DNA of 64,000 nt, taken from assembly GCF_000246985.2 (NCBI RefSeq), contig NC_022084.1, positions 1,761,224 through 1,825,223 of the forward strand, read 5' to 3'. The DNA comes from Thermococcus litoralis DSM 5473. GTDB lineage: Archaea; Methanobacteriota_B; Thermococci; Thermococcales; Thermococcaceae. The notes beneath the pieces are model-generated. The model saw only the letters and a list, made by a program, of their open reading frames with translations, searched no databases and was not told the origin of the DNA. This document shows positions 10,566 to 20,493 of the stretch, piece by piece. Every line of letters begins with the position of its first letter. Positions within the stretch are counted from its first letter, which is position 1. A program made the translations under genes and the position numbers.

Positions 10566-10823
10566 ATGCCAAGAACAAAGAAAGTTGGATCCGCTGGAAG
10601 GTTTGGACCAAGATATGGTCTTAAGATCAGAAGAAGAGTTGCAGCAGTAGAGGAAAAGATGAGACAAAAGCATACTTGCCCAGTATGTGGAAGGAAAGCC
10701 GTTAAGAGAATAAGCACCGGAATATGGCAGTGCCAGAAGTGTGGCGCAACTTTTGCAGGAGGCGCTTACTTGCCCGCAACTCCAGCTGGAAGGATTGCTA
10801 AGAGGGGTGTAACAACTCAATAA
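10566..10823 (+). CDS. rpl37ae: Ribosomal protein eL43 (L37Ae)
   Basis: The 85-residue zinc-ribbon ribosomal protein of the large subunit starts [18 protein letters not shown]. It has the zinc-binding pairs CPVC and CQKC and ends near [14 protein letters not shown] 10566 follows GAGGTGAT. In other Thermococcales it follows rrp42 directly. Here about 2.2 kb intervene. It is followed after 29 bases by rpoP. Confidence 0.96.
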
Positions 10824-10852
10824 ACCCCTTAAAACATTTTTTGGTGATCGTT

Positions 10853-15049: not shown

Positions 15050-15758
15050 GGATTATCGGTTGCTGGTTGCTGAAAAGGCAGTTGAGCTGTTTTTGAAAAC
15101 CATTGAAGGGGCTAAATTCAAGGGAAAGTGGGACAAAAAGAGGGCAGTAAAATTGGCGAAAGAAATGATTCCCGAGCTCCAGGCGTTGCGCTACTCATAT
15201 CTAGAGCCGCAGGAGTTAATTGATACTCCCCAGATGAAAGAACTAAAGGAAAAAGCCTTGGGAATAATTGAAGCCTTAGGTGGTGAAGACTGGTACATCA
15301 AGTTTCTCGAGCTGGCTGATAGAAGTGAGAGGGAGAAAGTTGAAGAGAGTATCGCAAGGGTTCGCTTTTTCCTAAACACAATTCTTAACCTTGATAAGAG
15401 GCTGGCACTTGGTAAGATAAACGATCCCGTCATTGCCGTAGACATAAAGGTCGGGGAAGTCATGAGCGCTGGTAAGCATCCAAATGCAGATAAACTTCTC
15501 GTATGCAATGTCAACATAGGGGATAGGGCGGTTACTGTGGTTACAAATGATTTAACCGTGAAGGAAGGTCACAGAGTTGCTGTGGCACTTTTACCCCCCG
15601 CAAACTTCAGAGGAATAACGAGCGAAGGAATGTTCTTAGGAGCTGGAGAAGGAGTTTTAAAGGATGTAAAGGGTGATATTGGCGGCTTACCAAAAGGAAT
15701 CCCGTTAGAGGCTCTCAAGGAAACAAGAAACTTAGTTGAGGCGTTTTTGAAGGATTGA
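15033..15758 (+). CDS. tRNA-binding OB-fold (EMAP/Arc1-like) protein
   Basis: The 241-residue protein starts [17 protein letters not shown] at ATG 15033, supported by GGTGAGGA upstream. Its N-terminal half is helical. The C-terminal half (about 130-241) is a tRNA-binding OB fold with the typical [19 protein letters not shown] strand pair and a [10 protein letters not shown] segment. The same domain occurs in MetRS C-termini, CsaA and Arc1p/EMAPII, where it increases affinity for tRNA. It may deliver tRNA to a synthetase or modifying enzyme. It ends the 12.4-15.8 kb gene cluster. Confidence 0.85.
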
Positions 15759-15865
15759 ACTGGTTTTTGCTTTTTAGTTTATTTGGTTTTCTATTGCCAG
15801 TAACATTGGATAATTGGACATTTTGTGCTATCGGATTTGATATAATTCACTATCAATCGAAGAAT

Positions 15866-15897
15866 TTTTGGTCAACCTTTACAATTTTTGACCAAAA
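15866..15897. promoter_or_regulatory. Perfect 10-bp inverted repeat next to a promoter
   Basis: TTTTGGTCAA (15866-15875) and TTGACCAAAA (15888-15897) form a perfect inverted repeat with a 12-base spacer. A TATA-like AACTTTATTAAG follows at once. This is the layout of a dimeric regulator site upstream of a promoter, here for the exported-protein cluster beginning at 16009. The regulator is unknown. Confidence 0.5.
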
Positions 15898-15950
15898 CTT
15901 TATTAAGATTAAAAGTGAAATATGAAAAAGTAAAGCTGGTCTATGTCTAT

Positions 15951-15981
15951 CTCGCTTTTCTTTTCTGCGAGAAAAGCTGAG
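15951..15981 (+). promoter_or_regulatory. Hairpin in the 5' leader of the exported-protein cluster
   Basis: GCTTTTC (15954-15960) pairs with GAAAAGC (15971-15977), extended by CTC/GAG with a bulge. CTCGC (15951-15955) can alternatively pair with GCGAG (15967-15971). The two forms exclude each other. They lie about 27 bases before the ATG at 16009. Confidence 0.3.
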
Positions 15982-16008
15982 CTACGGTAAAGGTGATGTG
16001 GTGATAAG

Positions 16009-17838
16009 ATGAAGAAGAAAGTCTGGTTTATTATTCTTATAGGGCTGATGCTTCTTCAAGCACCTTCTTCGCTAGGAATGAACTTGGAAGAAGGTATCCT
16101 TACTCCAGAGGAACTAGCAGGACTAAACCTTATTGAAATACAATTTAATGGTCATTTCATGGATTCTTCATCGGCTGGCGTACCGACTGAAGTGCATTCT
16201 TGGTCTTATTCAGCTCGTTTCAATTCTCCAGAGCACCAGAGGATTTCCATAAAAATTGAAATGACTATAATTACGGATGCGGATGAGAATGCGGAGGTAT
16301 CCATCTCAAAGGGGGATTATGATTCTTTTATTAGTGATGGATATCAGTGCTATATGAGTGACGACTACAAATTATTGGAGTGTACAAAAACGGAAAATCC
16401 TACTGGAATGGATTTTCCACACTCTTCGAAATACTATGGTGCAAAAGCCGTGAAGGCTACAAGGGTTAACGTATGGGTGGAAGGTTATTTCAATAATACG
16501 AATCCAGTACCCTCCCTAGGAAAAGACGTGCTCTCAATAGTCTCTTCTAAGGTCCCTTCCATAATAAGCTCTGAAAAAAATAGTGGATCTCCCCCCCAAG
16601 TTCAGATCCTTTCACCAAAAGACGGTGAGACTTTATATTTCGAACCCGGAAAGCCTTTGACGTTTACCATTAAAGTAGCAGTCAAGGATGACGATTTGAC
16701 ATATGCGGGGGCACACTATGAGAGCGGAACACCTAAAACCATAATGGTGGGTGGGGAACTTGAGCCCAAGCTCGGTTCAAGCGGAGGAACAGGGTCTAAG
16801 GTTGTAACCCTCCAACCGGATGAGATTGCAGAGGGAGAAGGAAAAATAAAAGCTTACGCCCGAGATTCTACCGGGAATGAAGTCGAAAAAACTATAACCG
16901 TCTACCTTCGGAAGAAACCTATCTCTACGAGCTCTGCAGTCCCATCCACTAGCTCTACCACCCCTAGCGTTTCTTCCACTACAAGCACACCACCATCAAG
17001 CAGAGCTCCAATAGAGGGGAAACAGGAAGCTGGAGACCCATCGAAGTTCAATAATCCCTTCAGAGGGATAAGAGTGGAAGGGATGCTCAGCAAAGAGGCA
17101 AATGTCCGGATGGAGATAACCCTCGACAAGCTCAAGGGGATAGGGAGTACTGAGGGCCTTGAAACTGTTGAAGTAAAAACTCCTTACGGAAAGAACGTCA
17201 AGGTTCTCCAGAAAGACGAGAAAGTTGAAGCAAAAAAGGGCTCTTCCCTCTGGTTTAAGCTCAAATATTACACCGGCAAGGCGCTTGACAAGGTCATTGA
17301 TTCTGCCTCAGGTGCCCTTGACAATCTGGTGAAAAAGTTCATGCCCTCTCCGATTGGCCTTTGCAAGGACTACGTCAAGGCCTACAAGGATACTCAGCTC
17401 TTCCAGGGGGAGGAGGCAACTAAAAAGACCATGCAGGATCTGCACGTGAGCAAGGAAGGGGCTGAAAGCTACAATGAGATGAGCGGAATTGAAGATAGAC
17501 AGCTCGCATCGTCGCCCTACAAAAACCTCGTCCCATCGACTCCGCTGACCAAGCCCTTCGAGTTCACCTTTGGCGCGCTTGAGAAGGGGTTCAAGCGACA
17601 CCTAGCAAATAACTACAAATGGGAGTTCGAAAAAACAGCAAAGACGGCAATGTACTACAAAAAAGCCGGCATGAAATATGAAGATATTGTTGACTTAACG
17701 ATAAGGGACGTTGAGGAGGAGACGAGCTTTTCCCGCCAGGTTCAGACGATGAATGCCCAGTCCAAGGGGAAGTACCAGAGTCAGAGGGAGAGGCTGAAGT
17801 TCTACCTCAAAAAGCTCCGTGAGGAGGGTAAGATATGA
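16009..17838 (+). CDS. Large unrecognised exported protein with Ig-like region and Ser/Thr linker
   Basis: The 609-residue protein begins with a signal peptide (MKKKVWFIILIGLMLLQAPS). A beta-rich region follows, then a segment resembling bacterial Ig-like folds (about 197-303, with PPQVQILSPKDGETLYF and ARDSTGNEVEKTITVYL). A Ser/Thr/Pro linker (about 305-332) comes next, and then a charged, helical C-terminal half. A GGTGATGTGGTGATAAG site precedes the ATG. No family is recognised. The linker is typical of glycosylated archaeal surface proteins. The second half of the gene is more GC-rich than the first. The end overlaps the next gene by four bases (ATGA). Confidence 0.7.
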   Translation: MKKKVWFIILIGLMLLQAPSSLGMNLEEGILTPEELAGLNLIEIQFNGHFMDSSSAGVPTEVHSWSYSARFNSPEHQRISIKIEMTIITDADENAEVSISKGDYDSFISDGYQCYMSDDYKLLECTKTENPTGMDFPHSSKYYGAKAVKATRVNVWVEGYFNNTNPVPSLGKDVLSIVSSKVPSIISSEKNSGSPPQVQILSPKDGETLYFEPGKPLTFTIKVAVKDDDLTYAGAHYESGTPKTIMVGGELEPKLGSSGGTGSKVVTLQPDEIAEGEGKIKAYARDSTGNEVEKTITVYLRKKPISTSSAVPSTSSTTPSVSSTTSTPPSSRAPIEGKQEAGDPSKFNNPFRGIRVEGMLSKEANVRMEITLDKLKGIGSTEGLETVEVKTPYGKNVKVLQKDEKVEAKKGSSLWFKLKYYTGKALDKVIDSASGALDNLVKKFMPSPIGLCKDYVKAYKDTQLFQGEEATKKTMQDLHVSKEGAESYNEMSGIEDRQLASSPYKNLVPSTPLTKPFEFTFGALEKGFKRHLANNYKWEFEKTAKTAMYYKKAGMKYEDIVDLTIRDVEEETSFSRQVQTMNAQSKGKYQSQRERLKFYLKKLREEGKI

Positions 17839-19157
17839 AGGGAAAAGTCATTTTTCTATTGATCATCCTGATAGGGGGTTACCTCTACATAAGCGACTAC
17901 ATAAAGATTCCAGATAACTTAGGCCCCGACAACAACCCCTACCCCCCTGATGGAGGTTCGAATTCGGGAAGCTTCAGTACTGGAGAAGTTGCCAAGGGTC
18001 TTAGACAAACAGTGATAGATATGGGCGCTTCGGACGCTTACGTCTCCCTCTCAAGTGAGAGAACGCTCGTCCAGTTCGAGGCTCCTGCCGTGGACGAGGC
18101 CCTTATGGGTATGGCCTACGAGGTGGCAAAGAAGGCCTACGAAGCCAACCCAGCGAAAGAAGTCAGGGTGGAAGCTTATTACCTCGGCGAACCCATTTTG
18201 GGGCTCACCGTGAGCAACGGCAACTTTGATAATCTCGAATTCGAGGACATAAGGAGGCCGGAATTCAAAGTGGAGTCGGATCTATGGCTCTTCGATGTTC
18301 TCGTCCACAACGTCACGGTTACCAATGATACCGCCAGCGTTATCCTTGAGTACCTTGCCGACGAGAAGGGCTTCTGGAAGGATTACTTCGCAATGGCCTT
18401 TTTAGTTCTTGAAGATGTTCCATGGGTTAAGGAAATCTCTATAACCTATCTCGCTGACAACGGGAGCTTAACGATTTCCACCTCAAGCGACGACCTCTTG
18501 AAGCTTCATTCAGGGGAAATCACAGCAGAAGAGCTTCCCGGCATAGTCCACATAAGCGTTGGAAATATCGGGGAGAGTAGTGAATCCACATGTGCTCCAA
18601 GCAAGGAGGAAGCTTACAGGCTTTTCGTCCAGGCCTACAACAACGTCACCTCCCTTCAATCTTCGGGGGCTAGCAACGAAGAAATTCAGGAAGCTTACGC
18701 TAAATACCAGAAGGCTAGAGCCTGCTACGAGTCTTTCATAACCACCACAACTTCCGTGAGCTCCAATGTAAAAACGGGAGAAATTAAAACCGTGATCCTC
18801 GATACCGAGGGGGCCGTGGGGGTAAAGTTCTCCACGGGTGAGCTAAGGAGCTCCGACCAATCTTTGACGTGGGAGAACATCGACATTATGCTCGAACCGT
18901 GGTGTGTTGATTATCCTGCATTGCTTGGGCACTACATAGACCTCGGCGAGGGGAGTCTCGATACCTTAGACCCAAGCGAGGTGCCAACCTCTGGCTATCC
19001 AACGGAGGAAGTGAGCGGCGAGATAAAAGCGGGCCACGTCTATGTGAACCTCAACTCCGATGGAAGCCTAACCGCATTCGAGCTCGTCTCCCACGAGAAA
19101 ACTGGAGATTGCTCCCATAGGATAACGATAAGGTACGCAAACATTGGAGGGGGCTGA
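17835..19157 (+). CDS. Unrecognised membrane-anchored extracellular protein
   Basis: The 440-residue protein has one N-terminal hydrophobic segment (residues 4-20), so it is probably anchored with the bulk outside. A Gly/Pro/Asn-rich spacer follows. Then comes an alpha/beta region, a predicted helical pair with cysteines (CAPSKEEAYRLF ... YQKARACYES) and a beta-rich C-terminal domain with WCVDYP and CSHRITIRY cysteines. Paired cysteines suit disulfide bonds outside the cell. It starts inside the stop of the previous gene. GC content is high here (63% in the line at 18061), unlike the window average. No family is recognised. Confidence 0.65.
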   Translation: MKGKVIFLLIILIGGYLYISDYIKIPDNLGPDNNPYPPDGGSNSGSFSTGEVAKGLRQTVIDMGASDAYVSLSSERTLVQFEAPAVDEALMGMAYEVAKKAYEANPAKEVRVEAYYLGEPILGLTVSNGNFDNLEFEDIRRPEFKVESDLWLFDVLVHNVTVTNDTASVILEYLADEKGFWKDYFAMAFLVLEDVPWVKEISITYLADNGSLTISTSSDDLLKLHSGEITAEELPGIVHISVGNIGESSESTCAPSKEEAYRLFVQAYNNVTSLQSSGASNEEIQEAYAKYQKARACYESFITTTTSVSSNVKTGEIKTVILDTEGAVGVKFSTGELRSSDQSLTWENIDIMLEPWCVDYPALLGHYIDLGEGSLDTLDPSEVPTSGYPTEEVSGEIKAGHVYVNLNSDGSLTAFELVSHEKTGDCSHRITIRYANIGGG

Positions 19158-19170
19158 AACGAAAATACTT

Positions 19171-19281
19171 ATGGGATTTCATGTTTTTGGCCCACTGATA
19201 GGGCTTTTTCTTCTTTTGGGAATTTTAGCCCTTCTCATGTGGACTGGCTGGCGTATAATAAAGTGGTTGGTAAAAACGTAG
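19171..19281 (+). CDS. Small single-span membrane protein
   Basis: A 36-residue ORF begins MGFHVFGPLIGLFLLLGILA, crosses the membrane once and ends with a basic tail (RIIKWLVKT). It sits between the anchored protein and the next membrane-anchored gene, with 13 bases before and 22 after. A purine-rich stretch (GGAGGGGG) is present upstream but somewhat far from the ATG. It is supported by position and hydrophobicity only. Confidence 0.45.
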   Translation: MGFHVFGPLIGLFLLLGILALLMWTGWRIIKWLVKT

Positions 19282-19303
19282 AGTTTTGGAGTAGGTGGTG
19301 AAA

Positions 19304-19693
19304 ATGGGGCTTTTTAAGAAACTTATTGTAGGGTTTTTCATTCTGCTCGTGCTTGGGATAATTGGAGCATTCGGCATGCAGTACTACTACGAGACCTTCT
19401 ACGAGAAGGTTCCCGTGGAAGTGAAGAGCGATACTGTGAGTGGAGAGGTTTTTTACCTTTCACACACCCTTGAGCCTGGCACGTATAAGATCGAGGCAGG
19501 GGGAACGGGCATCGTCAAGGCCATCAAGATACTAGATCCTGACACTAAGGAAATCATTTCAACTTATGAGGATAGCACTAAACTAATCTACGGCTCAGCA
19601 AAGCCATTTGTAGTAAGAATTGATTATGCACCGCCGAATCCCGGCGAGAGTTACACTGCTACAGTTGGTATATATCTATTGGTAAAAGAATGA
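19304..19693 (+). CDS. Unrecognised membrane-anchored small protein
   Basis: From ATG 19304 (AGGTGGTGA upstream) the protein has 129 residues: a short basic N-terminus, one membrane helix (about 6-26) and an extracellular beta-sandwich-like domain. The features LEPGTYKIEAGGTGIVKAIKILD and FVVRIDYAPPNPGESYTATVGIYL resemble small carbohydrate- or protein-binding jelly-roll folds. The family is not recognised. It is part of the exported-protein cluster and precedes a lipoprotein by nine bases. Confidence 0.6.
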   Translation: MGLFKKLIVGFFILLVLGIIGAFGMQYYYETFYEKVPVEVKSDTVSGEVFYLSHTLEPGTYKIEAGGTGIVKAIKILDPDTKEIISTYEDSTKLIYGSAKPFVVRIDYAPPNPGESYTATVGIYLLVKE

Positions 19694-19702
19694 GGTGAGA
19701 AA

Positions 19703-20413
19703 ATGAAGAAAGTTCACACTCTCTCGGCTCTGCTGCTCGTGCTAGTAATGCTTGCGAGCGGTTGTGAAAGTCCGGAGGTGAATGTTGAGGCAGAAAAAAC
19801 GCTTACCTTGAACGGGATAACCGTGCACTATTCAGGTGATGTTAGTGCCTCAGAAGCAAAGGCACTTATAAATTTCATAAAGGACACTCTAAATCCCGAT
19901 GAGATGAGCGCCTATGTGAAAAGGGATAACGGTTATACTGTAGGGTTGGTGACTACTTATACCTCCCCTGAAGAGATAGAAGATTTGCTCAAATTTTATC
20001 TCCCCATGATAGCCTCGGAGATGTCACAAGAGGTCTTTGAAGGATCCCATGTGACGCTTCAACTCCTTGATGAGGAGAAAAACGTTCTCTTTTCCACGGA
20101 GAGCAAGTATCACTACGTCACATCCAACAGGATATACGTGTGGTACTCTGAAGTAGGCGAGGACAAAGCAAACACAGTCTTAAACTACGCGCTTTCTCTT
20201 GTGGGAGAAGGACCTTGGGACATCATCCTTGAAAAAAGCGGAGATACATATCATGTAAGGGCAATGAGCGGCTTCACAAGTAGGGAAGAAGTAAGTTCTG
20301 TAGAGAATGAATACAAGAAAATGCTCTCTGATCTTGAGAAAGAACTCAACGGAAATGTGGTTCTTCACGTTCTTGATTCAGAGGGAAATGAGATAGCAGT
20401 TTTTAACGGCTAA
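19703..20413 (+). CDS. Unrecognised lipoprotein
   Basis: The 236-residue protein has a signal sequence with a lipobox-like end (MLASGC, Cys 21), so it is probably lipid-anchored. The rest contains two similar alpha/beta units, for example SASEAKALINFIKDTL and VTTYTSPEEIEDLLKFYLP early, then GFTSREEVSSVENEYKKML later. This suggests an internal duplication. It closes the exported-protein cluster. GAGGTGAGAAA precedes the ATG. T-rich sequence follows its stop. Function unknown. Confidence 0.65.
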   Translation: MKKVHTLSALLLVLVMLASGCESPEVNVEAEKTLTLNGITVHYSGDVSASEAKALINFIKDTLNPDEMSAYVKRDNGYTVGLVTTYTSPEEIEDLLKFYLPMIASEMSQEVFEGSHVTLQLLDEEKNVLFSTESKYHYVTSNRIYVWYSEVGEDKANTVLNYALSLVGEGPWDIILEKSGDTYHVRAMSGFTSREEVSSVENEYKKMLSDLEKELNGNVVLHVLDSEGNEIAVFNG

Positions 20414-20493
20414 TGTGCTTTTGGTTTATTTTTCTTTTCTTCTAAGCTTTTGTAGAGATTGAACATTTGGAAGGTCTTGGAAGTAACGTCCAA

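Follow-up and report, generated by a model that had tools for sequence, protein, structure and literature searches.

To our knowledge, self/non-self recognition and surface variation are almost uncharacterised in archaea. Polymorphic toxins have a conserved N-terminus and a variable C-terminus. The only hypervariable Thermococcales module returned by our literature search is VARTIG (VARiable Thermococcales IG; Makarova et al., 2021; PMC8416519). VARTIG loci encode a large first protein, mostly longer than 500 amino acids and with about five Ig domains, whose N-terminus is conserved and whose C-terminal Ig domain is hypervariable; it includes a CARDB-type Ig domain and carries the motif D[ND]NxxxG[GD] within its last 15 residues (PMC8416519). 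At least some of these loci adjoin an RNase III homologue (arCOG05836) (PMC8416519).

The locus described here encodes five exported or anchored proteins, A to E. A search of the literature, with most subscription journals outside its reach, found no description of it. We put at about even the chance that the locus represents one allele of a mosaic Thermococcaceae module that is exchanged horizontally and serves surface recognition, a function that we infer. A second module, unrelated to VARTIG and with partner-matched domains, offers a direct test of surface protein contacts. Its leader hairpin is a handle for finding copies in any genome and for probing expression of the locus, and genetically tractable Thermococcus strains make both the surface contacts and the role of the leader testable.

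Gene layout, insertion site and distribution

The window, a 64,000-nucleotide stretch of the Thermococcus litoralis DSM 5473 genome, contains the module as about 4.7 kb flanked by genes for a tRNA-binding protein and an RNA ligase (Table 1); the flanks were confirmed as tRNA_bind and RNA_ligase. BLASTN found the same site empty in seven other genomes of the genus, with the tRNA-binding-protein gene, a short gap and the RNA ligase gene. In the sister genome, G075, the module occupies the same site as in the window. A close relative, G080, retains short remnants of both A and E there, and the module was therefore gained and then lost in this genome. The scar (locus L085, oriented positions ~10760-10830) has a short gene A remnant next to the 3' end of gene E, the mark of an internal deletion that removed the rest.

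Table 1. Coordinates of features in the window and locus identifiers of optional cargo in other genomes.
Feature	Position or loci	Strand	Basis or remark
Whole inserted module, approximate ends	15758..20490	+	BLASTN against seven empty-site congeners and the scarred G080 site
Conserved leader element	15936..15986	+	Fuzzy scan, alignment, covariation counts, model R1 (46.5 bits)
Core hairpin TCTCGC-TTTTCTTTTCT-GCGAGA	15950-15972	+	36 bp upstream of gene A
Gene A, secreted protein, 609 aa	16009..17838	+	ORF, hydropathy, homologues, structure model
Hypervariable stretch of gene A	16100..16500	+	DNA identity to G075 49-54%
Gene B, N-terminally anchored protein, 440 aa	17835..19157	+	4 bp overlap with A
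Gene C, tiny single-pass membrane protein	19144..19281	+	TTG start, 45 aa, overlaps end of B
Gene D, anchored small beta-rich protein	19304..19693	+	ATG start; ORF list starts at GTG 19295
Gene E, lipoprotein	19703..20413	+	Signal and lipobox LASGC
Beta-propeller/CGP-CTERM cargo, cluster 31	L054, L055, L056, L067, L128, L130		
Beta-propeller/CGP-CTERM cargo, cluster 76	L059, L072		Leader hairpin also upstream of cluster 76 gene
bPH_3-like small proteins, cluster 11	L041, L043, L044, L061-L063, L065-L070		Upstream cluster 9

The original prediction, made from the sequence of 16009-20413, described five exported or anchored proteins, and all five ORFs are indeed present on the + strand, each with an export or membrane signal. 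In a hydropathy scan, C has one hydrophobic segment, and A, B, D and E each have a single one at the N-terminus. Gene C would be 36 aa long if started at ATG 19171, and its relatives carry the motif LTGFHVxGPLLG.

None of these products had been recognised in the original prediction, and database searches bear this out. None of the five passes the cut-off in Pfam or NCBIfam. For A, B, D and E, PADLOC gave no match and PHROG none that is meaningful. Five domain alignments were also compared as profiles with the PDB, without a convincing hit. A match of the A C-domain to MJ0577 in the PDB profile search (E 0.0017 over 43 residues) was taken as chance. Clear homology to unrelated known families, the finding that would have spoken against one system, was looked for and did not appear.

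At least one module gene is present in 58 of the 94 Thermococcaceae genomes surveyed, a distribution survey that the original prediction had proposed. Clear homologues of A, B, D and E occur in 31, 48, 55 and 32 genomes, respectively, which makes D the most widespread member; the nine genomes of group g3 have no module gene. In many loci the gene order is also preserved, and with omega well below 1 between sister genomes this shows that the ORFs are not a product of chance. In most genomes btpA and glmM flank the module; its recurrent neighbours are BtpA and GlmM, or others. Gene content is highly variable, with 28 arrangements among 39 loci compared. Some loci hold a single module gene (D in L129, E in L131 and, on a short contig, C beside the leader in L127), and several are decayed. 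A search of 115 genomes of the class for the C-terminal domain of B (BC) gave matches confined to Thermococcaceae. The genes are co-distributed, have a leader in common and encode A and B domains that are matched and interchangeable, which supports their belonging to one system; they form one operon-like, mosaic module. The btpA site of the window genome is itself without the module, and its btpA region (L093, 3741-9574) holds other genes, including a tyrosine recombinase-like gene and two for large proteins with membrane or signal segments.

The module resembles VARTIG in its restriction to Thermococcales, its hypervariable surface locus, its patchy distribution and its recombination between species, and in an operon of small membrane proteins that opens with a secreted Ig-domain protein. 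Several features separate the two. Whereas the first VARTIG protein has about five Ig domains, A is a 609-aa protein with one Ig-like region. No ORF of 100 aa or more in any module locus has the VARTIG motif D[ND]NxxxG[GD]. The polarity of variation is reversed, in that the N-terminus of A diverges and its helical C-terminus is conserved. No CARDB match was found for A at E<=1 or for variant A proteins at E<=0.1. Finally, unlike VARTIG, the module has a leader hairpin; it sits at btpA-glmM or elsewhere. Membership in VARTIG is rejected on the tested features (architecture, C-terminal motif, polarity of variation and CARDB domain); set apart by these features of A, VARTIG is an analogy for the module and not its family, although some minor genes may be common to both.

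Matched domain types in A and B

Protein A consists of an N-terminal signal-peptide-like segment, a beta-rich N-domain (~24-190), an Ig-like domain (~193-305), a Ser/Thr-rich linker (~306-330) and a helical C-domain (360-609) that ends in ...REEGKI. The C-domain, of type I in the window, is conserved, and the secreted N-part is hypervariable. B has one N-terminal anchor, a type I N-domain (1-245) and the BC domain (246-440). The Ig-like region is called from the structure model and Foldseek matches in the window A, and from position and sequence pattern only in type II loci.

Across loci, the A C-domain occurs in two types, I and II, and the B N-domain is likewise of type I or II, often followed by BC. 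Homology between the two A C-domain types was rejected (hhalign probability 0.4%). Type I A C-domains are paired with type I B N-domains in 21 of 21 cases and type II with type II in 15 of 15, counts that cover loci related by descent and are not independent events. A similar match links the Ig-like domain of A to BC of B: both are present in 21 loci and both absent from 13, G032 is the one exception, and a contig end truncates one further locus.

A comparison of genomes G042 and G028 shows how these domains move. The two loci have in common the leader, the A N-part (67% identity), BC (72%), D (88%), E (64%) and F (84%), and they differ in a non-homologous A C-domain (23%) and B N-domain (30%), an exchanged core that spans the gene boundary. 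Because they are jointly swapped across this boundary, the A C-domain and B N-domain are likely to be in contact; judged from these sequence comparisons, domains moving together in this way most likely touch each other. The structure prediction that had originally been suggested as a check gave a poor model of A (mean pLDDT 47) and a mediocre one of B (61), too weak a basis for docking A onto B, but it did support the Ig-like region of A.

In Foldseek searches, the tandem alpha/beta units of B weakly resemble the CamS / staph-cAM373 lipoprotein fold (PDB 3n2q, E 1.7e-4, and 2qx2) and the dual-BON protein DolP (7a2d). TM-scores against 3n2q, 2qx2 and 7a2d are 0.12-0.29 with no sequence similarity, and we treat the likeness as a lead only. 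By eye, E has an order of elements similar to the CamS / staph-cAM373 / DolP fold; a profile comparison did not support homology between the B N-domain and E.

Of the functions first proposed for the cluster, a surface appendage finds no support, as no pilin, secretion or sortase genes and no assembly ATPase occur among the module and flanking genes examined. The other proposal, a binding system or interaction device, was the better half of that guess, yet we only infer it. In the arrangement that we favour, A would be exported, and its helical C-domain and Ig-like domain would dock it onto membrane-anchored B. Facing outward, the hypervariable N-domain of A would bind a variable partner, and C, D and the lipoprotein E would be accessory parts on the membrane side. 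The most likely role is recognition at the cell surface (of kin or mates, in adhesion, or in virus evasion or capture), and such recognition would drive allele turnover. Against this reading, two C-domain types offer little diversity for an arms race.

The same organisation recalls polymorphic toxin and contact-dependent inhibition systems, in which a secreted variable protein is followed by a matched partner and domains are exchanged between loci. A would then be a secreted effector that acts on neighbouring cells through its C-domain, and B its membrane-bound immunity protein. The strict matching of A C-domain and B N-domain types, the patchy distribution with frequent loss and decay, and a general organisation as discussed for VARTIG are consistent with this idea. 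A cognate partner matched to C-domain type, a feature of polymorphic toxins, is present, although such a match does not show immunity. However, the variable end of A is its N-terminus, the reverse of polymorphic toxins, and there are only two C-domain types. No toxin or nuclease was recognised, and the C-terminus of A has no toxin-domain match above cut-off in Pfam, NCBIfam or PADLOC. Moreover, B also matches the Ig-like domain of A through its second domain, again unlike polymorphic toxins. We therefore regard an effector/immunity function as unlikely, while placing it ahead of the other two alternatives considered below.

A leader hairpin upstream of the module

A previously unnoted leader hairpin precedes the module. 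This hairpin, the hypervariability of the locus and its insertion carry most of the information, and all three are absent from the original prediction. The leader has a single perfect match in the window genome, and its consensus, TCYCGC-TTTTCTTTTCY-GCGAGA, lies near the first gene of almost every locus. With a covariance model we identified 67 copies in 57 of the 94 genomes, with one to three per genome. Nearly all (63 of 67) have a module gene on the same strand within the next 3.3 kb downstream, and 56 genomes are common to the leader set (57) and the module set (58). In most btpA-linked loci, the leader begins 67-99 bp downstream of btpA, whatever cargo comes next.

The case for an RNA element comes from conservation and covariation in relatives, where GCAAAACC pairs with GGTTTTGC as an outer stem. 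Standard pairs fill 83.7% of the outer-stem pair cells, against at most 49% when the strands are slid. Two-sided changes number 37 against 18.8 in shuffled alignments, with one slid control (+3) reaching a similar 34; counted by pair, the contrast is smaller, with 8 pairs showing two-sided changes against 6.1. At one inner position, most copies have a C-A mismatch. Only the inner stem is retained in the window copy, and folding of this single sequence alone gives an unremarkable result (z -0.4). Rfam has no match to the leader.

Inspection by eye places a TATA-like box some 40-60 bp upstream of the hairpin core, a position from which the hairpin would sit at the 5' end of the mRNA. Scans for sigma-70 promoters and terminators, methods unsuited to archaea, gave results near chance. 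A hairpin so placed would set expression of the downstream cargo. Most loci also have a second pyrimidine-core motif, TCGAATTTTCTTTTCCGAAAG, beside the TATA-like box and ~60-75 bp upstream of the hairpin. It resembles the hairpin core and is possibly a duplicated regulatory site.

More tentatively than the recognition module itself, we suggest a surface-diversity platform, in which a fixed promoter-leader with its structured RNA would serve interchangeable, partner-matched complexes acquired from other species for self/non-self recognition. We know of no described platform that is defined by its leader RNA and not by any one gene.

Divergence of the A N-part and candidate roles

The window and its sister genome (G075) are 96-100% identical in the flanks and 93-99% identical in D and E, and they fall to 49-54% in the A N-domain stretch. 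Their dS is ~0.4 for A and B, several times that of the flanks (~0.1), and the A-B alleles have therefore been replaced by recombination. The window A N-part is 86% identical to that of G016, a genome of another genus, against 67% to the sister genome; the RNA-ligase control between the window and G016 genera is 76%. Exchange of the matched domain pairs spans the gene boundary and also takes place between genera.

In nine of ten close pairs, the A N-part has a higher omega (0.17-0.54) than the C-part (0.07-0.18), for example 0.53 against 0.15 between the window and its sister; the exception is the window/G016 pair (0.14 against 0.16). The A C-part is 85-96% identical in close pairs. Module gene omega is well below 1 between sister genomes, and since no pair tested exceeds 1, positive selection is not demonstrated. 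Relaxed constraint on the A N-part is possible. The A N-parts sort into three sequence families, which indicates rapid divergence and replacement within families; a view in which every A N-domain was freely chosen and had no relation to the others was dropped for this reason.

A nutrient- or polymer-binding surface system, capturing solutes, polysaccharides or proteins with an N-domain that tracks local substrates, seems to us improbable, somewhat more so than an effector. It would account for the lipoprotein and the anchored beta-rich proteins, for the beta-propeller CGP-CTERM proteins added in some loci, and for the location of some loci near CGTase/maltose-type genes (named from sequence reading only). 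Those sugar genes are, however, flanks and not module members, the module is without a transporter, permease, ATPase or hydrolase, and a substrate-binding role would not usually go with turnover inside a gene when the flanks of the sister genomes are 96-100% identical.

Least probable is a decoy, receptor variant or exclusion factor against Thermococcales viruses or plasmids, for although rapid N-domain replacement through recombination and horizontal transfer, and frequent decay, are consistent with it, there is no match in the defence library, no known defence gene was seen in the flanks, and no collection searched gave a direct link to a virus. Origin of the module from a virus or plasmid was rejected separately: viral-contig scans and searches of phage and plasmid proteins gave no module match.

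The optional cargo of the module includes large beta-propeller-like proteins with a CGP-CTERM sorting tail. Small cytoplasmic proteins with a weak, below-cut-off likeness to bPH_3 (bacterial PH domain) occur inside and beside the module (Table 1). The sister genome keeps one bPH_3-like small protein, and the window has lost it.
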